Below, piece after piece: positions 37,265-53,913 of a stretch of DNA of 64,000 bases (the first letter of the stretch is position 1; each line of letters opens with the position of its first letter). The notes under the pieces were generated by a model, which was not told where the DNA came from, searched no databases, and worked only from the letters and a program-made list of their open reading frames with translations. The stretch is from Anaeromyxobacter terrae (GTDB lineage: Bacteria > Myxococcota > Myxococcia > Myxococcales > Anaeromyxobacteraceae): contig NZ_JALCYY010000007.1 in the NCBI RefSeq assembly GCF_022690685.1, forward strand, positions 62,001 to 126,000, read 5' to 3'. A program made the translations under genes and the position numbers.

Positions 37265-37594
37265 CTACCGAGGTGCGACGCGCGCGCGGCTCGGGCAGAG
37301 CGCCGAGACGACGTGGTGCCCGCGGCGCCGCGTGACGTAGGTCTCGCCGCGGCCGACGACGTGGTCCTCGGGGTCGCCTTCGCACGTGACGAGCAGCTCG
37401 CCCTCGAGGCAGGTGACCGCCACCGGAGCCGATCCGACCCGGACGCTCCGCGCGTCCGTGAGCTCCAGCCTCAGCTCGAGCGGCGCGCTGGGGGCGCTTC
37501 GCGAGGAGAGCTGCTGCTCCCACGCTCGCCCCCACGTCCACTCCCACATCCTAGGGTTCAGTCGTGCAATCGCCGTCGCCCGTGCAGCCTTCAT
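37265..37594 (-). CDS. DUF2917 family protein
   Basis: A 109-residue protein. The core at about 40-100 has the DUF2917 cupin-like pattern: a strand, VTCLEGELLVTCEGDPEDHVVGRGE as two strands around the GD.EDH turn, then a closing strand. Function is unknown. The same domain is fused to a kinase at 42274-43251, where the turn reads GDREDHVLEPGD. GGAGGAG sits ahead of the ATG. The gene is divergent from the Lrp regulator at 37755 across 160 bases that contain AT-rich sequence. Confidence 0.75.
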   Translation of the reverse strand: MKAARATAIARLNPRMWEWTWGRAWEQQLSSRSAPSAPLELRLELTDARSVRVGSAPVAVTCLEGELLVTCEGDPEDHVVGRGETYVTRRRGHHVVSALCPSRARVAPR

Positions 37595-37754: not shown

Positions 37755-38231
37755 ATGGCCCGAACCCCGTGGAATCTCGACGAGATCGACCTGAAGATTC
37801 TGAAGTTCCTCCAGGTGAACAACCGAATTTCCAATCAGGAGCTCGCCGGGAAGATCGGGCTGTCGCCGCCCGCCTGCCTTGCGCGTTGCCGCCGGCTCCG
37901 CGAGCAGGGCGTCATCAAGGGGGACGTCTCCCTGGTCGATCCTGCCGCACTCGGGTACAGCGTGTTCGTCCTGATGCGGATCGCGCTCGAGCGTCCCCGC
38001 GAGGACCTGCTGGCCGCTTTCGAGAAGAAGGTCCGGGACTTGCCCGAGGTGCTGCAGTGCTGGACGGTGACGGGTGACGTGGACTTCGTGCTGCTCGTCT
38101 GCGCGGCCTCGATCGAGGACTACCAGCGCTTCGCCCGGACGGTCGTCGCCGCCGAGCACAACATCAAGAGCTACGCGAGCGACGTGATCCTCTCGACGAC
38201 GAAATCCAGTTTCGCCTTGCCGATCCCCTGA
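37755..38231 (+). CDS. Lrp/AsnC family transcriptional regulator
   Basis: A 158-residue regulator with an N-terminal helix-turn-helix (LDEIDLKILKFLQVNNRISN, LAGKIGLSPPACLARCRRL) and an RAM domain (FVLMRIALERP, CWTVTGDVDFVLLVCA). It stands alone, divergent from the DUF2917 gene. CAGAATCTGATT, which holds inverted AATC/GATT half-sites, lies about 40 bases upstream of its start and may be an autoregulatory site. It shares the family of the regulator at 23125 and could also control the amino-acid island. Confidence 0.93.
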   Translation: MARTPWNLDEIDLKILKFLQVNNRISNQELAGKIGLSPPACLARCRRLREQGVIKGDVSLVDPAALGYSVFVLMRIALERPREDLLAAFEKKVRDLPEVLQCWTVTGDVDFVLLVCAASIEDYQRFARTVVAAEHNIKSYASDVILSTTKSSFALPIP

Positions 38232-38374: not shown

Positions 38375-40051
38375 GTGGAGGTTGGCGATCAGAGCTGCAA
38401 GTTCGTCGCGCGGCTGACCCTCCTCTCCAAGGTGGGCGCGCTGGCCGCGACCCTCGACTACGAGGAGGCGCTCTCCGCGGTCGCGCGGCTGTCGATCCCG
38501 GAGCTCGCCGACTGGTGCATCGTCGACGTCGTCGAGGAGCGCGAGGTCCGCCGGATGGAGGTCGCGCACCGGGATCCCAGCCGGGCGCCGCTCGCCGCAG
38601 CGCTGCGCGGCTTCCCGCTCGATCACGCCGCCCGGCGCCGGCTCCCGGCGACGCGGGCGCTGCAGTCGGGCCGCCCCGTGCTCATCCCGGACTACGGCGA
38701 CGACACGCTGCGAGCTGAGACGGAGGGTGAGTACCTCGCGCTCGCCCTGCAGCTCGGGGTTCGCTCCGTGCTCGTGGTGCCGGTCACCCTCTCGAGCTCG
38801 CTCGCGACCATGACCTTCCTCACCACGTCCGAGTCCGGGCGGAGGTACGGAGAGGAGGACGTCGCGCTCGCGGAGGAGCTCGTGAGGCGCGCCGCGCAGG
38901 TCGTCGAGAATGCGCGGGTGCACCAGAAGCTCCGGCGGACCGAGGAGCGGATCCGCGTCGCCCTCGCCCATTCCGACATCACCCTCTTCGAGCGTGACCT
39001 CGGGCTGCGTTATCGCTGGCTGTACAACCCGCCCTTCGGCTACCCCGCCGCCGAGATGCTGGGGCGGACCAACGCCGAGCTCATCCCGCCGGGCGAGGCC
39101 GCACGCATGGACGCGCTCGACCGCGTGGTCCTCCGGACCGGCGAGCGCGTCCAGGAGGAGCTGCAGGTCTCCGACCGGCGAGGCGGAGTGCACCACATGC
39201 TGGTCTCGGAGGAGCCGCTGCGCGACGCCTCGGGCGCGATCGTGGGCATCACCGGAGCGGCCAAGGACATCACCGATCAGCAGCGCGCACAGGAGCAGCT
39301 CGCGCGGGCGCTCGTCTTCCGCGAGCAGATGATGGGGGTCCTTGGCCACGACCTGCGGAACCCGCTCGGCGCGGTGCGCGCGCTCGTCTCGCTCCTCCTG
39401 CGGCGCGAGGATCTCGCGAAGAACGTGCGCGAGAGCCTCGAGGAGATCGACCGCGCGGGAGCGCGCATGCTCGAGCTCATCGGGACGCTCCTCGACTTCA
39501 CCCACAGCCGCTTCAAGGGCGGCATGCCGATCGCGCCGGTGCGGACGGACCTGCACGCCCTGTGTCGCGGCGTCGTCTCCGAGCTGCTGGCCGCCGAGCC
39601 GGGCCGGACGATCGAGCTCGACCTGGAAGGAGACGGGCACGGCACCTGGGATCCGGGGCGGATGGCGCAGGTCGTGTCGAACCTCGTGGCGAACGCGCTC
39701 GAGCACGGCGCGAGGCACGGCTCGGTGCGACTCTCGGTCGGCGGCGACGAGGAGGAGGTGATCCTCCAGGTGCTGAACCAGGGACCCACCATTCCCCCCG
39801 AGCTCATGGCCGTGCTGTTCGAGCCCTTCTGCCGCGGCCCGGCCCGGCGGGAGGGCGCTCACGCCCGGGGGCTCGGGCTCGGCCTCTACATCGTCAGCCA
39901 GATCGTGACCGCGCACGGCGGGGCGGTCGGCGTGGAGTCCTCGTCCGAGCGCGGGACGACGTTCACGGTGCGTATACCAAGGACGAGCGGCGTATCCCTG
40001 GCCGAAGCTCACCGGGCGGCCTGGGACGAGGGAGCGGTGACGGGCGCGTGA
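38375..40051 (+). CDS. GAF-PAS sensor histidine kinase, soluble
   Basis: A 558-residue kinase without membrane helices. A GAF domain covers about 20-180 (SVLVVPVTLSSSLATMTFLTT), a PAS domain about 190-305 (NPPFGYPAAEMLGRTNAELIP, GITGAAKDITDQ), then the phospho-acceptor H325 in GHDLRNP and ATPase motifs NLVANALEHG and GLGLGLYIVSQIV. No receiver is attached. The start is a GTG at 38375 behind GGGGAG. Its last 43 bases overlap the converging MFS gene. Confidence 0.92.
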   Translation: MEVGDQSCKFVARLTLLSKVGALAATLDYEEALSAVARLSIPELADWCIVDVVEEREVRRMEVAHRDPSRAPLAAALRGFPLDHAARRRLPATRALQSGRPVLIPDYGDDTLRAETEGEYLALALQLGVRSVLVVPVTLSSSLATMTFLTTSESGRRYGEEDVALAEELVRRAAQVVENARVHQKLRRTEERIRVALAHSDITLFERDLGLRYRWLYNPPFGYPAAEMLGRTNAELIPPGEAARMDALDRVVLRTGERVQEELQVSDRRGGVHHMLVSEEPLRDASGAIVGITGAAKDITDQQRAQEQLARALVFREQMMGVLGHDLRNPLGAVRALVSLLLRREDLAKNVRESLEEIDRAGARMLELIGTLLDFTHSRFKGGMPIAPVRTDLHALCRGVVSELLAAEPGRTIELDLEGDGHGTWDPGRMAQVVSNLVANALEHGARHGSVRLSVGGDEEEVILQVLNQGPTIPPELMAVLFEPFCRGPARREGAHARGLGLGLYIVSQIVTAHGGAVGVESSSERGTTFTVRIPRTSGVSLAEAHRAAWDEGAVTGA

Positions 40052-41277
40052 CGGCGGTCCGCCGAGAGCTCCTCCGCTCCCGCGTCGCGACCACGAACTC
40101 GCAGCTCCAGGAGCCACAGCAGGCCGGGCACGATGGCGGCCAGCGCCAGGGCGAGCCACGCCACGCGATCCATCCCCGCGAGCCGGCCGCCGGGGAGCTG
40201 CTGGAGCATGCTCGAGGCGAGCAACGCCCCGGTCGCCGATCCCAGGTGCTGGACGACCGACTGCGCCGACATGAAGCGCGCGCGCTCCTCCGGCGCGGGC
40301 ACCCGGCTCGTGAGCGCCTGCATCGGCACCATGCGGAAGCTGCTCGCGGCCATGAAGGCCACGAAGAGCGCCAGCGCCTGCGGCGCGCGGCCGGGAAAGA
40401 CGAAGGCGGCGAGCACCACGCCGACGTAGAGCGCGGTCCCTCCTGCCATGGTGACCGCGGCTCCGGCCCGATCGGCGAGGCGACCCGCGATGCGCATCAC
40501 CGCGAAGCTCACCACGCCCCCCGCGATGAAGAGGAGGCCGAGGCGCTCGCGCGGGTAACCGAGGTTGAACTGCCAGTAGGCGGCGATGTTCGGGACGAGG
40601 GCGAACTGCGCGGTCATCACGGCCGCGGTGGCGGCCAGCGCGAGCGCGACGGTGGGGCGCCGCAGGAGCTCGCCCGGGCTCGAGGAGGTCCTCGAGCGCG
40701 CCCCGAGGTGGAGCCGCAACGGCGGCAGGACGGCGACGGCGGTCGCGGCGAGCCCTGCCCCGAGCGCCGCCACCGCGAAGAACGGCAATCTCCAGCCACC
40801 GATCCTCGCGAGCTCCAGGCCCGCCGGCACGCCCAGCACCGACGCCAGGGCGAAGGCGCCCATGACGGCCCCCATGGCGCGGCCGCGCCGTTCGGGCGGC
40901 ACCACGTCCGAGACCACCGCGAGCGACAGCGACGTCGCCGGGCCGCCGAAGGCGCCGGCGAGGAGCCGCGCTGCCAGCATCGACTCGAGGCTCGTGGCGA
41001 ACGCGCCGGCCGCCGTCCCGACCACGAGCCCGGCGAGCACCACGCCGAGCGCCTTGCGGCGGTCGAATCGATCGAGGACCAGCGCGCCCACGATCCCGGT
41101 GAGCGCCGCCGCGGCCGTGTAGCTCGCGCCGACCAGGCCGAGCTTCGCGTTTGGGATGCCGAGGGCCCGCGCGAAGTCGGGCCCGAGCGGCATCACCATC
41201 ATGAAGTCGAGCACGTTGACGAACTGGATCGCGCCGATCACGAGGAGGAGCCGGCGCTCGGTGAGTCCTTGCCGCAT
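40009..41277 (-). CDS. MFS drug-type transporter
   Basis: A 422-residue inner-membrane transporter with about twelve hydrophobic segments. The first helices carry LDFMMVMPLGPDFAR and the loop 2-3 motif DRFDRRKALG, typical of drug:proton exporters (DHA1-like). The C-terminal 35 residues are hydrophilic. The start ATG at 41277 lies two bases after the predicted start of a sigma-54 transcript (promoter 41290-41305), which makes the message nearly leaderless; no ribosome site is seen. It belongs to the proposed sigma-54 efflux regulon. Substrate is unknown. Confidence 0.92.
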   Translation of the reverse strand: MRQGLTERRLLLVIGAIQFVNVLDFMMVMPLGPDFARALGIPNAKLGLVGASYTAAAALTGIVGALVLDRFDRRKALGVVLAGLVVGTAAGAFATSLESMLAARLLAGAFGGPATSLSLAVVSDVVPPERRGRAMGAVMGAFALASVLGVPAGLELARIGGWRLPFFAVAALGAGLAATAVAVLPPLRLHLGARSRTSSSPGELLRRPTVALALAATAAVMTAQFALVPNIAAYWQFNLGYPRERLGLLFIAGGVVSFAVMRIAGRLADRAGAAVTMAGGTALYVGVVLAAFVFPGRAPQALALFVAFMAASSFRMVPMQALTSRVPAPEERARFMSAQSVVQHLGSATGALLASSMLQQLPGGRLAGMDRVAWLALALAAIVPGLLWLLELRVRGRDAGAEELSADRRHAPVTAPSSQAAR

Positions 41278-41289
41278 GGGGGACGGTAT

Positions 41290-41305
41290 TGCAGCCCACG
41301 GGCCA
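41290..41305 (-). promoter_or_regulatory. Sigma-54 promoter (MFS gene)
   Basis: TGGCCCGTGGGCTGCA on the minus strand has GG and GC separated by 10 bases, as required for -24/-12 elements. It predicts transcription from about 41279. Confidence 0.75.
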
Positions 41306-42273: not shown

Positions 42274-43251
42274 TCAGGCGGATTGTGGGAGGGCCGTGGC
42301 GCTCGCGTCGGGAGCGACCCGGCCGGGCAGGATCGCCCTGACCGTGGTCCCCCTCCCCGGCTCGCTCTCGTACTGCAGGGAGCCGCCGTGATCCGCGATC
42401 ACCGCGCGCGCCAGCACCACGCCGAGCCCGGTGCCGTCCTCGCGCGTGGTGAAGAACGGGGTGCCGAGCCGCGCGAGGGTCTCGGAGGACATGCCGCGGC
42501 CCGTGTCGCGGACGGCGATCTCCGCCGCGTCACCCGTCTGGCGCACCTCGACCACCACCTCCCCGCCCGGCGGCGTGGCCTCGATCGCGTTCGCGACGAG
42601 GTTGAGGAGCGCCTCCTTGAGCCGGCGCGGGTCGCCGTCGACCGTGGCTTCCCCCCGCGCGCGGAGCCGGACCCGCGCCTCGCCCGCCAGCGCCGAGAGC
42701 GCGAGCAGTGCGTCGGCGACGACCGGCCCGAGCGCGACGCGCGGCGGCCTCGCGTCCTCGCGAGGCCGGGCCGACGAGAGGAAGCGCCGCAGGATCTCCT
42801 GCATCCGCGCGACCTCGCGCTCGATGAACACCAGGCGCTCGTGCGCGGGGGCCTCCGCCGGATTGCGCAGCCCGAGCTGCACGAGCGCCTTCACGCCGGC
42901 GAGCGGGTTCTTGAGCTCGTGCGCGACCTCGACGCCGAGCGGCTCGAGCTCTCCGGCGCGCTGGGGCGCCTCGTCTGCCCCCCGAGCGAGGACGCGGAGC
43001 CCCTCGCGCACCGAGATCGTCGCGGCGGTGAAGGCCCACGCCACCGCGAGCCCGCCGCGCGGCAGGACCAGCTCGTCACCGGGCTCGAGCACGTGGTCCT
43101 CGCGATCGCCGCCCCGCGTGACGAGCACCGTCCCGCGCTCGGCGCGCACGACCACGGCGACCCGCCGGCGCGGCAGCTTCAGGGTCGCGTTCTCCGCGAG
43201 ATCCCAGCTCTCGCGGGGGGGCTTCTGGGTCGTCCGGTTCCTCGTGGCCAT
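42274..43251 (-). CDS. DUF2917-histidine kinase fusion
   Basis: A 325-residue soluble kinase. Residues 15-85 form a DUF2917 domain (VVRAERGTVLVTRGGDREDHVLEPGDELVLP). The kinase core follows with H111 in VAHELKNPL, NLVANAIEATPPGGE, DTGRGM and GTGLGVVLARAVI. The core is closely similar to that of the membrane kinase at 52468-53787, including the unusual GVKALVQLGLRNPAEA run, so one arose by duplication and domain exchange. It follows the RND pump gene by 117 bases and is the last gene of that operon. It may sense pump-related state and phosphorylate the same NtrC-type regulator; this is inference. Confidence 0.88.
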   Translation of the reverse strand: MATRNRTTQKPPRESWDLAENATLKLPRRRVAVVVRAERGTVLVTRGGDREDHVLEPGDELVLPRGGLAVAWAFTAATISVREGLRVLARGADEAPQRAGELEPLGVEVAHELKNPLAGVKALVQLGLRNPAEAPAHERLVFIEREVARMQEILRRFLSSARPREDARPPRVALGPVVADALLALSALAGEARVRLRARGEATVDGDPRRLKEALLNLVANAIEATPPGGEVVVEVRQTGDAAEIAVRDTGRGMSSETLARLGTPFFTTREDGTGLGVVLARAVIADHGGSLQYESEPGRGTTVRAILPGRVAPDASATALPQSA

Positions 43252-43368: not shown

Positions 43369-46300
43369 CTAGAACTCGGGCTCCGGCCGCTGCGGACCGC
43401 CCTCCGCGCCCTGGTAGGCGGCGCGGAGCGGCCCGTCCGGCGGATCGAGCTCCGCCTGCGGCTCGAGCGCGCTGCGCTCCGGGACGCGGCCCTCGGCGCG
43501 GTGATCCCGGGCGATGAGCAGGTAGATGGCGGGCACGAAGAAGAGCGTGAACGCCGTTCCGATCGTCATGCCCGCGACGAGCACGAGGCCGATGCTGTTG
43601 CGCGCCTGGGCGCCGGGGCCGCTCACGAGCGTCAGCGGGAAGTGGCCGAAGACCGTCGCGACGCTGGTCATGAGGATGGGCCGGAGCCGCGTGACCGCCG
43701 CGCCCTGGACCGCCTCGAGCTTCGAGAGCCCCTGCTCCTGCAGCTTGTTCGCGAACTCGACGATGAGGATGCCGTTCTTCGCGACGAGGCCGACGAGGGT
43801 GACGAGGCCGACCTGCGAGTAGACGTTGAGCGTCGTCGTCCAGCCGTCCGTGAAGAACCGGAGGGTCGGGTTCGGCATCTTGAGGAACATCATGACGAGC
43901 GCGCCGAACATGCCGAGCGGCACGGAGCCGGCCAGGATCACGAACGGATCGCGGAAGCTGTTGAACTGCGCGGCGAGCACCAGGAAGATGAGCACCACCG
44001 CGAGGAGGAACGCCGGCAGGAACTTGTTCCCCTCGGTGCGGAGCTGGCGCGACTCGCCCGTGTAGTCGAGCTTGTAGTTCGCGGGGAGGATCTTCGCGGC
44101 CTCCCCCTCCAGGTACCCGAGCGCCTGGTCGAGGGGGCGGATCGCGACGCCGCTGATCTTCACGGCGTTGAGCTGCTGGAAGCGGTTGAGCGACCGCGGG
44201 GTGACCGAGTCCCGCAGGCTCGCGATGGACGCGAGCGAGACGAGCTGCCCACCCGGGCCGGTGACGTAGACGTCCTTCAGCTGCTCCGGGTTCAGGCGCT
44301 CCGAGCGGAGGATCTGCGGGATGACCTTGTAGCTCCGCCCGTCGATGCTGAAGCGGTTCACGTAGTTCCCTCCGACCGCCGACGCGAGATCGCGCCCGAC
44401 CGTCTGGAGATCGAGACCCAGCTCCGCCACCTTGTTGCGATCGAGCTCGATCTCCGTCGACGGCTGATCGATCTTCACGTCGAGGAGCGGCGGGAACGCG
44501 AACATCCCGCTCGCCGTCGCCTTCTCCTGGAGCTTCTTCGCGAAGTCCAGGATCTCGGAGCTCTCCGCGGTCGAGGCGATGACGAACTCGACCGGGAACT
44601 GGCCGCCGCCGGGGAGCGCGGGAGGCAGGATCGGGAACGCCTGGATGCCGGGGATGGCCGCGACCTTCTGCTGGATCTGCGGGAGGAGCTCGAACGCCGA
44701 CCGCTTGCGGTCCTCCCACGGCTTGAAGACGGCACCCCAGAAGCCGTTGTTCGGGAAGGTGACCTGGAACGTGAACTGCGACTCCGGGAACGACATCACG
44801 CTCTCGTTCACCTTGTGCACCGACGGCACGAGCTGGTCGAGCGTCGAGTTCGCGGGCGTGTTGACGACGCCGAAGATGTAGCCCTGGTCCTCCGTCGGGG
44901 CGAGCTCCTTGGGCGCCTGCGTGAACATCGCGAGCGCGAGGAGGCTCACCACGATCCACGCCGTGTAGATGGAGCCGCGGGACCGCAGCGCTAGCTCGAG
45001 GTGGCGCGCGTAGATCGCCTTCAGGCGATCGAAGCCGCGGTTGATGCGCCCCGCGAGCCCGCGCTCCTCGCCCCCGCCGCGGAGCAGGTACGCGGACATC
45101 ACCGGCGAGAGCGTCAGCGCCACGACGCCCGAGATGGTGACGGCGCCGGCGAGCGTGAGCGCGAACTCCCGGAACAGCGCGCCGGTGAGCCCGCCCTGGA
45201 AGGCGATCGGCGTGTACACCGCGGCGAGCGTGATGGTCATCGCGATGATGGGCCCGACGAGCTCGCGCGCGCCGCGGAGCGCCGCGTCGACGGGTCTCAT
45301 CCCATCGCGCAGGTGGCGCTCGACGTTCTCCACCACGACGATGGCGTCGTCCACCACGAGGCCCACCGAGAGCACGATCGCGAGCAGCGTCAGGAGGTTC
45401 AGGGTGAACCCGAAGGCCTGCATCAGGAACACCGCCCCGATGAGCGACACCGGGATCGCGACCACCGGCACGAGCACCGAGCGCAGCGAGCCGAGGAACA
45501 GGAAGATGACGATCACGACGATGAGCAGCGTCTCGGCGAGCGTCCGCTCCACCTCGGTGATGGCGTCCCGGACGTAGGTGGTGGCGTCGAAGGCGATGCG
45601 GGCCTGGATCTGGTCCGGGATCTCCTTCTGCAGGGAGTCGAGCTCCACGCGCACGCGCTTGATGACGTCGAGCGAGTTCGCGTTCGGCAGGGCCCAGATC
45701 CCGATGAAGACCGCCGTCTGCCCGCTGAAGTTGGTGAGGGCGTCGTAGTCCTCCGCGCCGAGCACCACGTCGGCGACGTCGCCGAGCCGCACGACCGCGC
45801 CGCCCTGCTCGCGGATGGGGAGCTGCTGGAACTCCCGGGGCGACCTGAGGTCGGTGTTGGCGGTGAGGTTGACCTGGACGAGCGAGCCCTTCGTCTGGCC
45901 GACCGCGGCCTGGTAGTTGTTCCGCGAGAGCGCCTCCCGGATCTGGGCCGGGCTGACGTTCAGGGCCGCCATGCGGTCCGGCTTCAGCCAGATCCGCATC
46001 GCGAAGGTGCGGGCGCCCAGGATGTCGGCGCGCTGCACGCCCTCGACCGCGGAGAGCCGCGGCTGGACGACGCGGACGAGGTAGTCGGTGATCTCGTTCT
46101 GCTTGAGGGCGCTCGAGGCGAAGGAGAGGTACGCGGAGGCGAGCGCGCTGTCGGCGGACTCGATGGTGATGATCGGGACCTCCGCCTCGGGCGGGAGATC
46201 GCCGCGCACCTGGTCGACCTTGGAGCCGATCTCCGAGAGCGCCTTGGTCGCGTCGTAGTTGAGGCGCAGCCGCGCCCGGATGATGGAGACGTTCTGCTTG

Positions 46301-46551
46301 CTCTCGGACTCGATGTAGTCGATGCCGTCCGCCGCCGCGATCACGCGCTCGAGCGGCGTGGTGATGAACCCGCGCACCAGCGACGCGCTCGCCCCGACGT
46401 AGTTGGTGGTGACGATGATCTGCGCGTTCTCGCTGCGCGGGTACTGCCGGGCGTTGATCGTCCGGATCGCCTGGAGCCCCGCGATGACGATGACGAGGCT
46501 GACGACGATCGCGATGACGGGGCGGCGGATGAAGAGATCGGTGAACTTCAT
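43369..46551 (-). CDS. RND efflux pump, inner-membrane subunit (HAE1/AcrB type)
   Basis: A 1060-residue proton-driven exporter. Twelve membrane helices are arranged as in AcrB, with the proton-relay pair in GLVVDDAIVVVEN and the partner lysine in LVAKNGILIVEF. Large periplasmic loops follow helices 1 and 7. The hydrophilic end after HRAEGRVP is longer than usual. It starts 15 bases after the adaptor gene on the same strand and would form a tripartite pump with the adaptor and the TolC-like protein at 47868. Substrates are not predictable from sequence. Confidence 0.97.
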   Translation of the reverse strand: MKFTDLFIRRPVIAIVVSLVIVIAGLQAIRTINARQYPRSENAQIIVTTNYVGASASLVRGFITTPLERVIAAADGIDYIESESKQNVSIIRARLRLNYDATKALSEIGSKVDQVRGDLPPEAEVPIITIESADSALASAYLSFASSALKQNEITDYLVRVVQPRLSAVEGVQRADILGARTFAMRIWLKPDRMAALNVSPAQIREALSRNNYQAAVGQTKGSLVQVNLTANTDLRSPREFQQLPIREQGGAVVRLGDVADVVLGAEDYDALTNFSGQTAVFIGIWALPNANSLDVIKRVRVELDSLQKEIPDQIQARIAFDATTYVRDAITEVERTLAETLLIVVIVIFLFLGSLRSVLVPVVAIPVSLIGAVFLMQAFGFTLNLLTLLAIVLSVGLVVDDAIVVVENVERHLRDGMRPVDAALRGARELVGPIIAMTITLAAVYTPIAFQGGLTGALFREFALTLAGAVTISGVVALTLSPVMSAYLLRGGGEERGLAGRINRGFDRLKAIYARHLELALRSRGSIYTAWIVVSLLALAMFTQAPKELAPTEDQGYIFGVVNTPANSTLDQLVPSVHKVNESVMSFPESQFTFQVTFPNNGFWGAVFKPWEDRKRSAFELLPQIQQKVAAIPGIQAFPILPPALPGGGQFPVEFVIASTAESSEILDFAKKLQEKATASGMFAFPPLLDVKIDQPSTEIELDRNKVAELGLDLQTVGRDLASAVGGNYVNRFSIDGRSYKVIPQILRSERLNPEQLKDVYVTGPGGQLVSLASIASLRDSVTPRSLNRFQQLNAVKISGVAIRPLDQALGYLEGEAAKILPANYKLDYTGESRQLRTEGNKFLPAFLLAVVLIFLVLAAQFNSFRDPFVILAGSVPLGMFGALVMMFLKMPNPTLRFFTDGWTTTLNVYSQVGLVTLVGLVAKNGILIVEFANKLQEQGLSKLEAVQGAAVTRLRPILMTSVATVFGHFPLTLVSGPGAQARNSIGLVLVAGMTIGTAFTLFFVPAIYLLIARDHRAEGRVPERSALEPQAELDPPDGPLRAAYQGAEGGPQRPEPEF

Positions 46552-46566: not shown

Positions 46567-47703
46567 TCACTCTTCGGTCGGCTTCGGCGCGAGCTGCGCG
46601 TCCGGTGCCAGGGAGTTGTTCACGGCGACCGAGGCGCCGTTGCGCAGCTTGAACGCCCCGCTGCTCACGACGGCCTCTCCCGCCTTCAGCCCGGAGGCGA
46701 CGGCGACGACGTCTCCCCGCCGCTCCCCGGTGCGGACGAACTTCTGGCGGGCGACGGTGGTCGTCTTGCCCGCGGCATCCTTCTTCTCCTCGATCGCGAA
46801 CACCGAGTCGCCATAGGGCGCGAAGATCACCGCGGTCGCGGGGATGACGAGCACGGGCCGCTTCTCCGAGGAGAGCACCTGCACGTTCGCGAACATGCCG
46901 GGGCGCAGCCGGCCGTCCCGGTTCTCGAACGTCGCGCGCACGCGGACGTTGCGCGTGGCCGGGTCGACCTCGGGGTTGATGGTGGTGATCTCGCCGTCCC
47001 ACGCCGCGCCGTGGAAGGCGTCGACCTGGATGCGCGCCCGCTCGCCCGGCTTCAGCTCCGCGAGCGCCTGCTGGGGCAGCCAGAAGTCCGCGTAGATCGG
47101 GCTCACCGACTGAAGCGACGCGATGGGGGTCCCGGGCGAGACGACCTGGCCCAGCTCGACCTGACGGATCGCGATGCGCCCATCGAACGGGGCGCGGATG
47201 GTCTTCTTGGCGATGGTCGCCCGGAGGTTCGCGACCGTCGCGTCCGTCTGCTTCGCGCGCGCCTCGGCGGCGTCGAGATCGGCCTGCGCGTTGGCCTCGC
47301 CGTGGCGCAGCTGCTCCGCGCGCTTCAGGCTCACCCGCGCGAGCGACGCGTCGGCGACGGCCGCGGCGAGCTGCGCCTCCTCGGCGGAGGTGTCGAGCTT
47401 CACGAGCACCTGGCCGCGCTTCACCGCTGACCCCGACTCGAACGAGATCTCGCGGATGGTCCCTGGGAGCTCCGCGCCAAGGATCACGCCGCGCATCGCC
47501 ACGAGGGATCCGATGGCGGCCCGCGTCCCCTCCCACTGGGCGGCCTCGACCTTGGCCGAGGTGACGGCCTCCGGAGGCGGCGCGAACGACTCGCTCGCCC
47601 TGACCATGGTGACGATCTGGCCGGCTTTCACACCGACGAGGACGCCCACCACGACGACCAAACCGACGATGACCAGAATCCACTGCGTACGCTTGCTCTT
47701 CAT
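46567..47703 (-). CDS. RND efflux periplasmic adaptor (membrane-fusion protein)
   Basis: A 378-residue adaptor. A single membrane anchor lies at about 8-26 (WILVIVGLVVVVGVLVGV). The lipoyl-like halves and a helical hairpin follow (AEEAQLAAAVADASLARV, LRHGEANAQADLDAAEARA), then the beta-barrel and membrane-proximal domains with GVTVV-type strands. It links the RND pump to the outer-membrane channel. The ATG at 47703 has GGGAGAG ahead. A sigma-54 promoter at 47738-47753 and an activator palindrome at 47826 sit in its 164-base upstream gap. Confidence 0.95.
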   Translation of the reverse strand: MKSKRTQWILVIVGLVVVVGVLVGVKAGQIVTMVRASESFAPPPEAVTSAKVEAAQWEGTRAAIGSLVAMRGVILGAELPGTIREISFESGSAVKRGQVLVKLDTSAEEAQLAAAVADASLARVSLKRAEQLRHGEANAQADLDAAEARAKQTDATVANLRATIAKKTIRAPFDGRIAIRQVELGQVVSPGTPIASLQSVSPIYADFWLPQQALAELKPGERARIQVDAFHGAAWDGEITTINPEVDPATRNVRVRATFENRDGRLRPGMFANVQVLSSEKRPVLVIPATAVIFAPYGDSVFAIEEKKDAAGKTTTVARQKFVRTGERRGDVVAVASGLKAGEAVVSSGAFKLRNGASVAVNNSLAPDAQLAPKPTEE

Positions 47704-47737: not shown

Positions 47738-47753
47738 TGCAGCCGCCGGGCCA
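47738..47753 (-). promoter_or_regulatory. Sigma-54 promoter (RND operon)
   Basis: TGGCCCGGCGGCTGCA on the minus strand with correct GG-N10-GC spacing. Predicted start is about 47727, giving a 24-base leader that contains the adaptor ribosome site. Confidence 0.8.
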
Positions 47754-47867: not shown

Positions 47868-49172
47868 TCACGGCGCTCCCCTGGCCGGAGGCTCGAGGAG
47901 GCTCTCGCCCGCCGCGACCCGCAGCTGCGCGCGCGAGTTGACGAGATCGGCGTCCGCCTGGATGCGCGCGGCGTCGGCGCTGAACGCGTCGCGCTGCGCC
48001 TGGAGGAGGTCGAGCTGCGTCGCGGCGCCCGCCTGGTATCGCTCCAGCGCGAGGTCCGCCGCCCGCGTGCCGACCTCCGCCTGGACGCGCGCGGACCGGC
48101 TCCGCGCGATGTTCGTCCGGACCGTCATCCAAGCCCGGTGGATGTCGTCGCGCGCCGCGAGCCGCGCGCGCTCCTCCCGCGCCCGCGCCGCGTCTGCCGC
48201 CGCGTCCTGCGCGCGGATGCCCGCGAAGTTGGTGAGGTCGAGGGACCAGCTCAGGCCGACCACCGCCTGCCAGTAGGCGTCCCGACCGGCGAGGCCCTCG
48301 GCGCTCGTCACCCGCTCGGTGACGCTCGCGCTCAGGCTGGGGACGAGGGTGAGGCGCTGCGCCCGGGCCTGCTGCTCGGAGGCCGCGCGGCTCTGCATCG
48401 CCGCGGCGAGCGCAGGGATGGCCTCGTCGGGCACCTGGAACCGCTCGAGTGGTGGCTCCTCGTGGAGGTCGTCGACGAGCGCCCTGTCGGCGTCCAGCTC
48501 GGGGGTGAGGCCGGTGAGGGACTGGAGCGAGCGCGCCGCGAGCGAGACCTGGAGCTCGGCGCTCGCGAGCTGCTGCACGTTGCGCTCGACCTCGGCCCGG
48601 GCGCGATCCACGTCGAGGAGGCCGCTCGTGCCGGCCTGGTGCCGCTCGTCGGCGATCCGGAGGCTCGCCCTCGCCACGTCGAGCGCCCGGCGCGAGGCTC
48701 CGACGAGGGCGGCGTTCGCCACGAGCTGGTAGTAGCCCTGGGACACGAGCGCCTGGACGCGGAGCTCCGTGGAGGCCGCCTGCGTCGCCGAGGCGCGCGC
48801 GTCGGTCCGGGCCGCCCGGATCCGCGCGAAGCTCGCGAGGTCGACGAGCGGGACGTCGAGCGTGGCGGTGCCGTCGAGCTGATCCTTCGGCGTGATCGTG
48901 ACGATCTCGGGGGGGCCTCCTCCCGGCGCCGGCAGCTGCAGCGTCGTGTCGAACTGGTTGCGGGCGTACTGTCCGTGCAGCGACAGGCGCGGCAGCGCGC
49001 GGCCGAGCGAGACGTCCGCCTCGGCGCCGAGCTGCCTGCGGACGGCGCGCGCCTCCGCGTTGTCCGTGCTGCTCGTCCGCGCGCCGCGCAGGAACTCCTC
49101 GAGCGGCTGGAGCGCGCTCGCCCGCCCTGCCACCCCGAGCCAGAGCGCCGCGAGCAAGACCTTCACCGGCAT
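47868..49172 (-). CDS. TolC-family outer-membrane efflux protein
   Basis: A 434-residue outer-membrane channel. A signal peptide covers about 1-20 (VLLAALWLGVAGRASA). Two homologous helical halves follow, the first with LGRALPRLSLHGQYARNQF and TSGLLDVDRARAEVE, the second with LVPSLSASVTERV and GAATQLDLLQAQRDAFSADAARI, the duplicated TolC pattern. The start ATG at 49172 follows GGGAGGAG. It completes the tripartite pump. It may be read through from the outer-membrane barrel gene 214 bases upstream, because no sigma-54 element was found directly before it. Confidence 0.94.
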   Translation of the reverse strand: MPVKVLLAALWLGVAGRASALQPLEEFLRGARTSSTDNAEARAVRRQLGAEADVSLGRALPRLSLHGQYARNQFDTTLQLPAPGGGPPEIVTITPKDQLDGTATLDVPLVDLASFARIRAARTDARASATQAASTELRVQALVSQGYYQLVANAALVGASRRALDVARASLRIADERHQAGTSGLLDVDRARAEVERNVQQLASAELQVSLAARSLQSLTGLTPELDADRALVDDLHEEPPLERFQVPDEAIPALAAAMQSRAASEQQARAQRLTLVPSLSASVTERVTSAEGLAGRDAYWQAVVGLSWSLDLTNFAGIRAQDAAADAARAREERARLAARDDIHRAWMTVRTNIARSRSARVQAEVGTRAADLALERYQAGAATQLDLLQAQRDAFSADAARIQADADLVNSRAQLRVAAGESLLEPPARGAP

Positions 49173-49309
49173 GACGACTCCTCCCACGCGACCGCCCCGC
49201 GATCGCAGCCTTCGCCGCGCGCCCGTCGCGCTCCGCGACGACCGCCGGCGGAAGCTGCGGCGCCGTCGTGTCGCGCGCGCTTCCGTGAGTTGAAGAGAGA
49301 TGAAGGCCG

Positions 49310-49341
49310 GGAGGGCCCCGGCGACCGGGCCAGGGCCCTCC
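49310..49341. repeat. Intergenic hairpin between barrel and TolC-like genes
   Basis: GGAGGGCCC (49310-49318) and GGGCCCTCC (49333-49341) form a perfect 9-bp stem with a 14-base loop. No T-run follows on either strand, so it may be a processing or stability element rather than a full terminator. Confidence 0.4.
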
Positions 49342-49386
49342 TCGGTCCGCGGTCCGCGCGGCGCGCGGTCCGCGGCCCCTTCCGCG

Positions 49387-50007
49387 TCAGAACTCGTACC
49401 CGATGGACGCACCGACCGACCACCGCTCCATGCTCACCGGGGCCTGGCTCGGCGCGAGCGGGAGGTCCTCGTTGAAGCTCGTACGGTAGGTGAACCGCGC
49501 GTCGAGGAGGAAGCGGTCGTAGCCGAACGTGATCCCTCCGCCGAACGGGACGACGCCGATGTCGTCCGTGTCCTTCTGACCCGGCGCGGCGTCCCGGAGC
49601 GACAGGTGGCTGAAGCCGATGCCGCCGAAGGCGAAGGGCTCGACGAGCCAGGCGCCCGCGGCGTACGGGTACTGGAGCCGCAGCACGGCCTCGGCGCCGT
49701 TCGTCAGGAGGTCGGAGCCCGACCCGGTGGCCTTGAGGGCGGAGCCGACGTAGCCCACCTCGGCGCCGACGAAGGAGCGGCTACCGATCCCGAGGCGGGC
49801 ATCCCAGGTCCCGCCGACGTCGAAGCGGTCCTTCACCGCGCGCTCCTTGAAGTCGGTGACTCCGCCTCCGAAGAGGACGTACTCGCCCAGCGGCGTCAGG
49901 AGCCCGTCGGACCCGGCGGCTCGCCAGCCCTGGGCGCTCCCGATCCCCGGCGCGGCAGCGACGAGCAGCCCCGCGATGAACGCGAACCTCGATCTCTCAG
50001 CACGCAT
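49387..50007 (-). CDS. Outer-membrane beta-barrel protein
   Basis: A 206-residue protein. A signal peptide covers about 1-25 (FAFIAGLLVAAAPGIGSAQG). Alternating strands follow (SFVGAEVGYVGSALKATG, PFGGGITFGYDRFLLDARFTYR), ending in SVGASIGYEF with the C-terminal Phe typical of outer-membrane barrels. This is the OmpX/OmpW-size porin-like group with no known ligand. It has its own sigma-54 promoter (50085) and activator palindrome (50184), and is followed by the TolC-like gene. An upstream frame extension to 50127 would run through the promoter and is rejected. Confidence 0.87.
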   Translation of the reverse strand: MRAERSRFAFIAGLLVAAAPGIGSAQGWRAAGSDGLLTPLGEYVLFGGGVTDFKERAVKDRFDVGGTWDARLGIGSRSFVGAEVGYVGSALKATGSGSDLLTNGAEAVLRLQYPYAAGAWLVEPFAFGGIGFSHLSLRDAAPGQKDTDDIGVVPFGGGITFGYDRFLLDARFTYRTSFNEDLPLAPSQAPVSMERWSVGASIGYEF

Positions 50008-50084
50008 CTCCCATCTTCCTTCTCCGGCGATCGCCGGCGCTGTCCTGCGTTGAAGCGTCGGCCTCGCCGACACCCGGACACCGT

Positions 50085-50100
50085 TGCAGCCCGCGGGCCA
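50085..50100 (-). promoter_or_regulatory. Sigma-54 promoter (outer-membrane barrel gene)
   Basis: TGGCCCGCGGGCTGCA on the minus strand, GG-N10-GC. Predicted start about 50074. Confidence 0.8.
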
Positions 50101-50331: not shown

Positions 50332-50901
50332 TCAGGCGCCGGCGCCCGTCCCAGCGAGCCGCGTGCGGCGCGCGTCGCGAGGGATGCCGGCGGCGAGCCC
50401 TGCCACGACGGCAGCCGCCAGGATGACCCCCGAGCCGGCGGCCTCGGGCTTGACGGTCATGAGGGCCAGGATCCCGAGCCCGATCGCGATCCTCACCCGG
50501 AGTGATGCCGTGAGCGCGGCGCTCCCCCGGGCGTCCCGGAACGCGCTCGAGAGCGCCGTCCCGCTCTCGCCGGCGAGCGCGGCGCGGAGCCGCCGCATCG
50601 CGCGCCCCGTCACGCCGCCCCCCGCGATGGCCATCCCGACCATGCCCAGGAAGGCGCCGAGGATCCAGGGCTGGCGTCCCCAGGCCGTCGCCATCATCCA
50701 CGCGCCGGAGGCGAGCGCCGTGATCATCGCCGCCGGGCCGAGGCGCCGGGGCACCGCGTGCAGGCGGAGCCAGACGCCGGCGTCGCCCGGAGTCTCCGCC
50801 CGCCGGAGGCCTCCGAGCGCGACGGCCTCGATGCCGAGCGCGACGTAGACGCCGACACCGCCGAGGACGTGGACGAACACCAGGATCGAGTACGTGCTCA
50901 T
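50332..50901 (-). CDS. Small polytopic membrane protein (DUF2269-like), unknown
   Basis: A 189-residue protein with four or five membrane helices: ILVFVHVLGGVGVYVALGIEAVAL, AAMITALASGAWMMATAW, ILGAFLGMVGMAIAGGGVTG, VRIAIGLGILALMTV and GVILAAAVVAGLAAG. The first helix and the LHAVPRRLGP loop resemble the DUF2269 group of predicted integral membrane proteins, with no known role. Its sigma-54 promoter (50931) and activator palindrome (51021) place it in the efflux regulon. The start ATG at 50901 is 19 bases from the predicted transcript start. Confidence 0.8.
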   Translation of the reverse strand: MSTYSILVFVHVLGGVGVYVALGIEAVALGGLRRAETPGDAGVWLRLHAVPRRLGPAAMITALASGAWMMATAWGRQPWILGAFLGMVGMAIAGGGVTGRAMRRLRAALAGESGTALSSAFRDARGSAALTASLRVRIAIGLGILALMTVKPEAAGSGVILAAAVVAGLAAGIPRDARRTRLAGTGAGA

Positions 50902-50930: not shown

Positions 50931-50946
50931 TGCACGCGGCGGGCCA
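50931..50946 (-). promoter_or_regulatory. Sigma-54 promoter (small membrane-protein gene)
   Basis: TGGCCCGCCGCGTGCA on the minus strand, GG-N10-GC. Predicted start about 50920. Confidence 0.75.
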
Positions 50947-51068: not shown

Positions 51069-52493
51069 TCAGCTCGCGGCGCCAGCGCCGAAGTCGGCCG
51101 CGATCTCGTAACGGCGGAGGCGCTCGGTGAGCGTGTTGCGGCTGATGCCGAGCCGGCGGGCGGCCTCGGACTGGTTGCCGCGGACCGCGGTCATCGTCCG
51201 TGCGATGACGCTCCGCTCGAGCGCGTCGAGCTGCTCTCGCAGGGTCTGGGCGCCCGCCTCCGCGCGGTCCCCGCCGTTCCGTGGCGCGAGGGACTCCGCG
51301 GACGCTGGCTCCGCGGACGCTGGCTCCGCGGACGCTGGCTCCGCGGACGTGGTCCCGGCGAGCCCGCCCGGCCCGATCTCGCCGCCGCCGCTCAGCGCCA
51401 CCATGCGCGCCACCACGTTCTCGAGCTGGCGCACGTTGCCCGGCCAGTCGGCGGCCACGAGCCGCTCGACGAGCGCGGGAGCGAGGCGGACCTCCTCGGC
51501 CCCGAACCGCTCCGCGTAGCGGTGCGCGAACTCGTGCGCGAGCGCCGGGATGTCCTCCCGCCGCTCGCGCAGCGGCGGGACCACGAGCTCGACGACGGCC
51601 AGACGGTAATAGAGGTCCTCGCGGAAGCGGCCGGCGTGGATCTCGGCGAGGAGATCGCGGTTGGTGCACGCGACGATGCGCACGTCCACCTTCTCGACGC
51701 GCCCCGAGCCGACCGGCTGGATCTCGCCGTCCTGCAGCGCCCGCAGGAGCTTCGCCTGGATGGCGAGGGGCAGCTCGCCCACCTCGTCGAGGACGAGCGT
51801 GCCCCGGTTCGCCTCGGCGAAGAACCCAGGGCGCGCCTGGGTGGCGCCGGTGAAGGCGCCGCGGGTGTGACCGAAGAGCTCCGCCTCGGCCAGCTCCGCC
51901 GGGATCGCGCTGCAGTTGAAGCGGACCAGCGGGCCCTCGGCGCGCCGGCTCTGGGCGTGCAGCAGGGAGCCGATGAGCTCCTTGCCCGTGCCGGTCTCGC
52001 CGCGCACGAGGACGGTGATCTCCTTCGCCGCCACGCGCGAGGTCGCGTCGAGGAGGTGGCGCATGACCGCCGACTCGCAGACGACGCGCCGCCCGATGGC
52101 ATGCTCCGCGGTGAGCTGGCGGTTCCGCTGCCGCAGCCCGCGCGCCTCGACGGCGCGCTCGAGCGCGACGAGCATCTCGTCCACGTCGAACGGCTTCGTG
52201 ACGTACTCGTACGCGCCCGCCTTGATGGCGCGGACGGCGAGCCGCTCCGAGCCGTGCGCGGTCAGCAGGATCACCGGCAGGCTCTCGTCCCGCTCGCGGA
52301 CGGCGCGCAGGAGGTCCATCCCGTCCATCTCGGGCATGGAGAAGTCCGTCACCACGGCGTCGGCGCGATCGACGAGCTCGAGGGCCTCGGCGCCGGAGCG
52401 CGCGACGAGCGGCTCCCAGCCGCGCCCCTGGACGAGCTCCCGAAGCGCGACGCGCACCGAGGGCTCGTCATCGACGAGCAGCACACGCGGCAT
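51069..52493 (-). CDS. NtrC-family sigma-54 response regulator
   Basis: A 474-residue activator. The receiver has D50 (VVTDFSMPE) and K100 (VTKPF). The central AAA+ domain has Walker A GETGTGKE, the sigma-54 contact loop GAFTGA, Walker B GTLVLDEVGE and RFREDLYYRL. A Fis-type helix-turn-helix closes the protein (RRLGISRNTLTERLRRY). The linker at about 383-400 is a repeated SAEPA tract. Its start overlaps the sensor kinase end by 26 bases, so they form an operon. It is the obvious candidate to bind the five palindromes and activate the five sigma-54 promoters described here. Confidence 0.96.
   Translation of the reverse strand: MPRVLLVDDEPSVRVALRELVQGRGWEPLVARSGAEALELVDRADAVVTDFSMPEMDGMDLLRAVRERDESLPVILLTAHGSERLAVRAIKAGAYEYVTKPFDVDEMLVALERAVEARGLRQRNRQLTAEHAIGRRVVCESAVMRHLLDATSRVAAKEITVLVRGETGTGKELIGSLLHAQSRRAEGPLVRFNCSAIPAELAEAELFGHTRGAFTGATQARPGFFAEANRGTLVLDEVGELPLAIQAKLLRALQDGEIQPVGSGRVEKVDVRIVACTNRDLLAEIHAGRFREDLYYRLAVVELVVPPLRERREDIPALAHEFAHRYAERFGAEEVRLAPALVERLVAADWPGNVRQLENVVARMVALSGGGEIGPGGLAGTTSAEPASAEPASAEPASAESLAPRNGGDRAEAGAQTLREQLDALERSVIARTMTAVRGNQSEAARRLGISRNTLTERLRRYEIAADFGAGAAS
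51301..51345 (-). repeat. 15-bp tandem repeat, three copies, in the activator linker
   Basis: Unit GACGCTGGCTCCGCG repeated exactly at 51301, 51316 and 51331, with partial copies on both sides. It is in frame and encodes the SAEPA units between the AAA+ and DNA-binding domains. Confidence 0.95.
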
Positions 52494-53787
52494 CGCACGC
52501 CCCCGTGGCCACGCGCGGCAGCGTGACCTTGACGCGGGTTCCCTTGCCCGGCTCGCTCTCGTAGCGCAGCGACCCGCCGTGCTGCGCGATCACCGAGCGC
52601 GCGAGCACGACACCGAGGCCGGTGCCGTCGTCGCGGGTGGTGAAGAACGGCGTGCCGATGTGCCTCAGCGTCTCGGCGGCCATCCCGCGGCCGTTGTCGC
52701 GGACCACGATCTCCGCGTCGTCGCCGGCCGGCCGCACCTCGACCACCACCTCCCCGCCCGGCGGCGTGGCCTCGATGGCGTTCGCCACGAGGTTGAGGAG
52801 CGCCTCCTTGAGGCGACGCGGATCGGCCTCGAGCGTGGCGTCTCCCTGCGCGTACAGCCGGACGCGCGCGTCGTCGGCGCGCGCCGACAGCACGACGAGC
52901 GCGTCCGAGACGAGCGGCCCGAGCTCCACCCGACGCGGCGTGACCGCCTGCAACGGGCGCGTGAACGACAGGTAGTTGTGGAGGATCTCCTGCATCCGCG
53001 TGACCTCGCGCTCCACGATCTCGAGCCGCTCGTGCGAGGACGCCTCGGCCGGGTTTCGCAGGCCGAGCTGGACGAGCGCCTTCACGCCGGTGAGCGGGTT
53101 CTTGAGCTCGTGCGCCACCTTCGAGCCGATCTGCTCGAGGCTCTGGGCGCGAGCGAGCGCGTCGGCGGCCATCTCCTTGCGCGCGCGGGCGAACGCGTCA
53201 CGCCGCTTGCGCGCGCGCGCATGGACCGGCGCGAGCAGGAGGCCGATGCCCAGGACGCTCATCAGCGTCAGGAAGGCGTAGGCCGGGCTCGCGAGCTCCG
53301 GCCCGGCGAGGGAGCGCGGGAGGAGAGCGATGACGCCCACCTCGAGGGCGGTCGCGCCCAGGAGGAGCCGCGTCTGCGGGCGGTCGCCGACCGCGGACAC
53401 GGCGGCGACGTACGCCCCCATGATGGTGAGGAGCAGCGGGCTGTGGATGCCTCCGGTGACGGCCACCGCCACGCCCGTGGTGAGGAAGAAGCACGCCTGC
53501 GAGGCGACGACGAGCCAGGCGAGCTGGTCGACGTCGGCGTTGACGCAGAGCTTGATGTCGCGCTTCCGCCAGGTGAGGTAGTTGGCCTTCTGGACTGCCG
53601 CGGCGAGGGCGAGGATCGCGATCCTCCCCGCGGGGTAGCTGGTCGCCGCCAGCACGGCGACGGCGACCAGGTGGAAGACGACGGGGAGCAGGTCCTCGCT
53701 GGGCCAGCGCACGCCTCCGCGGACGGACGGCATCGCTCCGGCCGACCGGGGCGCCAGAGGGGGTTGCAGGCGGGCGTACCCGAGCAT
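52468..53787 (-). CDS. Polytopic membrane sensor histidine kinase, partner of the NtrC-type regulator
   Basis: A 439-residue kinase. Six hydrophobic segments lie in the first half (LLPVVFHLVAVAVLAATSYP, ACFFLTTGVAVAVTGG, LLLTIMGAYVAAVSAVG, FLTLMSVLGIGLLLAPV among them). The phospho-acceptor is in KVAHELKNPL, followed by NLVANAIEATPPGGE, DNGRGM and GTGLGVVLARSVI. The core is nearly the same as that of the DUF2917 kinase. I chose the ATG at 53787 because a sigma-54 promoter (53803) predicts transcription from about 53792; the ATG at 53733 is an alternative and the frame opens at 53838. Confidence 0.88.
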   Translation of the reverse strand: MLGYARLQPPLAPRSAGAMPSVRGGVRWPSEDLLPVVFHLVAVAVLAATSYPAGRIAILALAAAVQKANYLTWRKRDIKLCVNADVDQLAWLVVASQACFFLTTGVAVAVTGGIHSPLLLTIMGAYVAAVSAVGDRPQTRLLLGATALEVGVIALLPRSLAGPELASPAYAFLTLMSVLGIGLLLAPVHARARKRRDAFARARKEMAADALARAQSLEQIGSKVAHELKNPLTGVKALVQLGLRNPAEASSHERLEIVEREVTRMQEILHNYLSFTRPLQAVTPRRVELGPLVSDALVVLSARADDARVRLYAQGDATLEADPRRLKEALLNLVANAIEATPPGGEVVVEVRPAGDDAEIVVRDNGRGMAAETLRHIGTPFFTTRDDGTGLGVVLARSVIAQHGGSLRYESEPGKGTRVKVTLPRVATGACDAACAARR

Positions 53788-53802
53788 CGTGCTCGTTCCC
53801 TC

Positions 53803-53818
53803 CGCAAGTTCCGGGCCG
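53803..53818 (-). promoter_or_regulatory. Sigma-54 promoter (kinase-regulator operon)
   Basis: CGGCCCGGAACTTGCG on the minus strand has GG-N10-GC and a full TTGC -12 element. Predicted start about 53792, inside the longest open frame, which bears on start choice. Confidence 0.65.
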
Positions 53819-53913
53819 GACGTGAGGACTCGCTCCATCCCCAGGCTTTAACGGGGACGAGGGCGCGCTACCCGCCTCGTGCCCAACGGGGATCTCTCGA
53901 GCTCGCGCAGATC

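Follow-up and report, generated by a model that had tools for sequence, protein, structure and literature searches.

The window analysed here, a stretch of 64,000 nucleotides from Anaeromyxobacter terrae, contains a gene for a 325-residue protein in which a DUF2917 domain precedes a histidine kinase core. On the same strand lies a cluster coding for an RND efflux pump, its outer-membrane components and a two-component system (Table 1). A Pfam profile search of the fused open reading frame matches DUF2917 at residues 16-70 (E 4.6e-9; 35.9 bits for a cut-off of 25.5), HisKA at residues 109-164 (E 1.4e-8) and HATPase_c at residues 206-309 (E 3.4e-28). The initial annotation had read residues 15-85 as DUF2917 linked directly to a kinase core, and had reported a second, stand-alone copy of the domain in the window; the profile scores agree with both statements. 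In all, four DUF2917 matches above cut-off are found in the 5.65 Mb draft genome. The DUF2917 part of the fused protein carries the family-wide pattern G..T...D..D..L (alignments A1 and A5), as G40, T45, D49, D52 and L55. On the kinase side, all five sequence boxes (H, N, G1, F, G2) are intact. No membrane segment was found in the 325 residues and the protein, expected to be cytoplasmic, has no domain besides DUF2917 and the kinase core. No response-regulator gene was found adjoining the fused gene.

Table 1. Features of the pump region and of the fused gene (positions in the window).
Feature	Position	Strand	Basis and remarks
DUF2917 gene, stand-alone	37265..37594	(-)	Pfam, 39.2 bits; divergent from Lrp/AsnC gene 37755-38231
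Sigma-54-like site TGGCCCGTGGGCTGCA	41290..41305	(-)	13 nt upstream of called start of MFS gene 40009-41277
DUF2917-histidine kinase	42274..43251	(-)	Pfam; orthologues in G005 and G007; 325 aa, soluble
HATPase_c	42325..42636	(-)	Pfam, sequence; residues 206-309; N box NLVANAIEA, G1 DTGRGM, F box FFTT, G2 GTGLG
HisKA	42760..42927	(-)	Pfam, sequence; residues 109-164; phospho-acceptor H111 in VAHELKNP
Variable linker of the fused kinase	42937..42999	(-)	Alignment, dN/dS; residues 85-105
DUF2917 domain	43000..43206	(-)	Residues 16-84 (Pfam match 16-70); predicted cupin barrel
Block GTGCATCCGTGCCCGCCCGGAGTGCAA	43334..43360	(-)	Upstream of kinase gene; largely conserved in three species (by eye)
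RND pump (ACR_tran)	43369..46551	(-)	Pfam
Membrane fusion protein, MFP (HlyD_D23)	46567..47703	(-)	Pfam
Sigma-54-like site TGGCCCGGCGGCTGCA	47738..47753	(-)	Before MFP-RND(-kinase) genes
Outer membrane efflux protein, OEP	47868..49412	(-)	Pfam; start codon uncertain
Outer-membrane beta-barrel protein, OMP	49387..50010	(-)	Pfam, weak match
Sigma-54-like site TGGCCCGCGGGCTGCA	50085..50100	(-)	Upstream of OMP gene
Small membrane protein	50332..50901	(-)	Sequence; no Pfam match
Sigma-54-like site TGGCCCGCCGCGTGCA	50931..50946	(-)	Near variant; upstream of small membrane protein gene
NtrC-type response regulator	51069..52493	(-)	Pfam, sequence; Response_reg, Sigma54_activat, HTH_8; GAFTGA loop
Membrane histidine kinase	52468..53838	(-)	Core about 70% identical to DUF2917 kinase

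The regulator of the cluster has the receiver, sigma-54 activator domain, Fis-type HTH and GAFTGA motif of the NtrC type, and the adjacent membrane kinase is probably its cognate kinase. This membrane kinase, whose core is NtrB/AtoS-like, resembles the fused kinase in its catalytic part but has a hydrophobic, membrane-type N-terminal region where the latter has DUF2917. A protein similar to the small membrane protein of the cluster is encoded directly after the RND gene in a related genome (G002; L079 9722-10297).

A gap of 117 nt separates the end of the RND gene from the start of the fused gene. Similar spacing is seen in one relative (G005); in another (G007), the two genes are interrupted by a MocR gene that is read in the opposite direction. 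The interval between the RND and kinase genes showed neither an intrinsic terminator nor a sigma-70 promoter pattern. Co-transcription of the fused kinase with the pump therefore appears possible in two species and would be excluded in G007 by the intervening gene, so that the kinase can be placed at the end of the RND operon, as first proposed, in two species only. The conserved block about 110 nt upstream of the fused kinase is kept even in G007, despite the different neighbouring gene; it may be a control element of its own, operator or promoter.

Conservation and origin of the fusion

Among the nine genomes of the genus that were searched, full-length orthologues of the fused gene occur in G005 (83% identical) and G007 (71% identical); the remaining ones match the kinase core only, without DUF2917. 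A DUF2917 kinase is thus found after the RND gene in three of the nine, counting that of the window (G000). These three genomes share with G002, G004 and G006 the gene order membrane kinase, NtrC-type regulator, OEP, MFP, RND; the OMP gene is matched in the same three and in G006 only. From substitution counts in the three-species comparison, dN/dS is 0.26-0.31 for DUF2917, while the kinase has 0.44-0.53 and the linker 0.58-1.7. The fused DUF2917, with dN/dS about 0.3, appears to be under purifying selection, and the values for the two parts indicate that both halves of the fusion are maintained. Recurrence in three species, together with this selection, rules out a chance joining or the sequencing artefact that the initial annotation had kept in mind.

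The fused core is 67-72% identical to that of the membrane kinase of the cluster, with a nearly identical H-box helix. A third group of paralogues consists of soluble histidine kinase cores devoid of any sensor (G000:C88:57381-58052, L050; G007 L051; G006 L044; G004 L045; G002 L046; G001 L047). These sensor-less cores are closely related to the cluster kinases, and no NtrC homologue was found nearby in the two loci checked. The kinase-core tree does not distinguish whether the fusion drew on the membrane kinase or on a sensor-less core. On the DUF2917 side, the fused domains and three stand-alone genes, one in each of G000, G005 and G007, form one clade (support 100/99). Within the nine genomes covered by the phylogeny, the fusion thus seems to have originated by gene duplication and fusion inside one small clade. 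A search by domain architecture, suggested with the initial annotation, recovers the fusion in the three species but finds none beyond the genus among 195 genomes of the phylum or the Burkholderiaceae matches listed. The long frames that were read among the Burkholderiaceae and phylum matches were upstream frame extensions, EamA fusions or, in one case (L151), a frame running through masked bases.

Sigma-54-like sites around the pump cluster

The pump operon had been described as sigma-54-controlled. Within the window, the canonical pattern TGGCAC-N5-TTGCW has no match below 2 mismatches and, with mismatches allowed, is not enriched (10 found vs 11.6 expected). A variant in which GG-N10-GC is retained, TGGCCCG-N4-CTGCA, precedes the MFP and OMP genes, and a near variant precedes the gene of the small membrane protein; relatives have counterparts at the same genes. 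No such site was found directly upstream of the fused kinase gene. What stands of the original description is therefore a set of conserved sigma-54-like sites, not a canonical promoter and not one proper to the kinase.

Genome-wide (5.65 Mb), the strict variant occurs five times. Three of these sites are in the cluster, one is on contig C62, 55 nt ahead of the start of a stand-alone DUF2917 gene (G000:C62:45209-45224; L004, L168), and the fifth precedes a gene on C99 assigned from its sequence as NAD(P)-binding. The total is not enriched, since the reversed control yields 4 sites. With one base left free (TGGCNCG-N4-CTGCA), 5 sites are counted in 5.65 Mb vs 32 for the reversed control. The same form gives 10 sites in G007, of which three are in the cluster and one precedes that genome's own stand-alone DUF2917 gene (G007:C1:3805877; L027), and seven in G005, of which three are in the cluster region. 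No clear motif was found upstream of the stand-alone DUF2917 gene of G005. The weight of the motif resides in its clustering and in its position before a related DUF2917 gene, not in its total count. In the stand-alone DUF2917 genes of G000 (C62) and G007, the motif is about 45-55 nt before the start. The stand-alone DUF2917 gene of the window is outside the sigma-54-like set; it is the only case divergent from an Lrp/AsnC gene among the 60 myxobacterial loci described below.

Predicted fold and possible function of the fused kinase

The domain-only alignment of 49 DUF2917 relatives was used for structure prediction and gave an all-beta model with a pLDDT of 90.6; an earlier model from three full-length sequences (pLDDT 50.8) was set aside. 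Foldseek ranks small cupins at the top (HP0902, 5j4f, E 6e-4; 3fjs; TM1112), and in VIA-align PpnP, 3fjs, HP0902 and other barrels reach Z about 10, with nearly the whole model covered. A small cupin barrel is therefore the confidently predicted fold of DUF2917. The double-stranded beta-helix would be common to DUF2917, HP0902, TM1112/DUF861, PpnP and the Cupin_2 domains of XRE regulators. However, small single-barrel cupins are only 9-22% identical to the fused domain, and Pfam Cupin_2 stays below cut-off in two DUF2917 relatives (about 16 vs 27.2 bits) and has no listed match in the fused protein. The metal ligands of cupins (HxH...E and the second-motif His) are also missing, as there is no HxH in residues 16-45 and the second-motif position is occupied by A69. 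The fused domain can thus be called cupin-like without being a metal cupin. Within the family, conservation is highest in the GD..D loop. In a profile search of solved structures, designed Pizza repeat proteins had low E-values, but these match only one 22-residue strand pattern and were disregarded.

The cupin fold frequently binds small molecules. Some cupins, however, serve as dimerisation domains, as do those of CENP-C/Mif2, which are among the structural matches of the model. The initial annotation had considered DUF2917 a sensory domain. This agrees with its N-terminal input position and with the predicted barrel, but a ligand-sensing role is not proven thereby, because of the part that cupins also play in dimerisation. 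In the literature searched, we found no paper joining cupin domains with sensor kinases.

We would put at about even the chance that the fused protein is a soluble second kinase/phosphatase for the NtrC-type regulator of the pump, its cupin-like DUF2917 input reporting a cytoplasmic signal. The joining of DUF2917 to a core paralogous to the cluster's own sensor kinase would have produced a soluble histidine kinase. The likeliest partner to be bound by DUF2917 would be either an export-linked small molecule or the stand-alone DUF2917 protein of the same predicted regulon, and binding would shift the kinase/phosphatase balance. We infer that the core then acts on the regulator also targeted by the membrane kinase, which would drive the RND operon, the outer-membrane genes and the unlinked DUF2917 gene through the sigma-54-like promoters. 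With two kinases acting on one regulator, one input to the pump regulon would come from the membrane (outer) and the other from the cytoplasm (inner). Feedback from pump state or substrate had been suggested at the outset. Feedback by the exported compound is plausible and a reasonable idea in view of the DUF2917 domain in input position, the cupin model, the sigma-54-like sites and the kinase paralogy; sensing of pump state is not indicated, since the fused protein has no membrane segment. Several observations run against this second-input reading. The other close paralogue of the fused core is the sensor-less one (L050, L051), no sigma-54-like site directly precedes the fused gene, the stand-alone DUF2917 gene of G005 lacks a clear motif upstream, and in G007 the fused kinase cannot share a transcript with the pump. 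A further observation of this kind concerns position H+7, which may matter for partner choice: two of the three fusions have Ala there, and the membrane kinases have Thr. Because a sensor-less paralogue exists and the core tree indicates no source, the partner of the fused kinase is not fixed.

A rather unlikely alternative, though one to be weighed seriously, is that DUF2917 is not a ligand sensor but a dimerisation or protein-docking domain pairing the kinase with itself or with a stand-alone DUF2917 protein, the signal then being protein levels. The missing metal ligands and the match to the CENP-C/Mif2 cupins fit this proposal, as does the absence of any other domain in the cytoplasmic kinase, and the fused domain and the stand-alone DUF2917 of the regulon are sister copies in the same three genomes. 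However, the GD..D loop is family-wide, even in short stand-alone proteins, which suggests a common site beyond packing, and the DHp domain of the kinase dimerises on its own. If instead the fused kinase were an orphan serving another response regulator, its site by the RND operon would be a by-product of local duplication. We regard this as quite unlikely: the near-identity of the H-box helix with that of the cluster kinase, the conserved neighbourhood in three species and the cluster's promoter motif before a related DUF2917 gene all argue against it, even though no regulator gene adjoins the fused kinase, there are several paralogous cores, some of them sensor-less and located in other parts of the genome with no NtrC homologue nearby, and the G007 gene is set apart from the operon. 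Finally, the fact that in the genomes searched the fusion is confined to three species, all of a single genus, could point to a recent accident in which DUF2917 has no special function. The dN/dS of the domain, lower than that of the kinase from which it is separated by a fast-evolving linker, makes this hardly credible.

All the evidence presented here is sequence-based, the fold being a prediction. The kinase fusion provides the DUF2917 family with an assayable output, and a phosphorylation readout with candidate compounds could reveal the ligand.

DUF2917 in other genomes

Within the phylum, 56 of 195 genomes carry DUF2917, as do 234 of 299 Burkholderiaceae genomes, but only 4 of 369 genomes sampled across the class. 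The surveys of loci took the best-scoring ones first. In myxobacteria, the DUF2917 gene is divergent from a regulator gene in 53 of 60 loci (45 MocR, 7 LysR, 1 Lrp), and five of the seven exceptions are either the fused genes of G000 and G005 or stand-alone members of the sister clade. Divergence from MocR or LysR is seen in 43 of 58 Burkholderiaceae loci, a set picked by score and hence biased. The typical PF11142 domain shares with the fused one the GD..DHVL motif and an above-cut-off score. However, nearly all copies examined stand alone by MocR or LysR genes, whereas the fused copy is carried by a kinase in a sigma-54-type context. It appears, from these comparisons, that the Anaeromyxobacter clade shifted DUF2917 to a kinase and to sigma-54-like control.

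DUF2917 also occurs at the N-terminus of EamA exporters, which are of two subtypes, in Archangium, Hyalangium and relatives (L056, L061, L065, L075, L085, L162, L163) and in Polyangium (L088-L091). As in the fused kinase, it stands at the N-terminus of a larger protein with a link to export, but here the output is a transporter, not a kinase, and each fusion gene is divergent from a MocR regulator gene. From the survey of loci, DUF2917 therefore accompanies regulators and exporters in two phyla, which suggests that it belongs to modules controlling small-molecule export. The initial annotation knew of no role for DUF2917; the association with MocR/LysR and EamA in Myxococcota and Burkholderiaceae narrows the possibilities. 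Tentatively, and with less than even confidence, it can be proposed that DUF2917 is a metal-free cupin sensing one class of intracellular export substrate, for instance an amino compound, with MocR/LysR regulators, EamA exporters and the kinase as three outputs. If true, export control would have a general input domain that had so far gone unrecognised. The predicted fold, the MocR/LysR link and the EamA fusions offer concrete leads to a function in export control for a domain that is common in Burkholderiaceae and frequent in myxobacteria, yet barely mentioned in the literature searched.

In a Geobacter strain, the DUF2917 gene GSU3506 is 17-fold up, with no role assigned (PMC6520446). A group of MocR regulators has been linked to a membrane-protein family of unknown function, and the pairing of MocR genes with divergent partner genes follows a genomic logic similar to that of the MocR-DUF2917 pairs; DUF2917 itself is absent from the full text of that study (PMC4944035). 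In Cystobacterineae (e.g., L009, L065, L162), the MocR-DUF2917 intergenic region repeatedly reads NCTGHN or similar in frame, and such regions hint at a conserved MocR operator, AAYTGYACNGGNCAYAAY.
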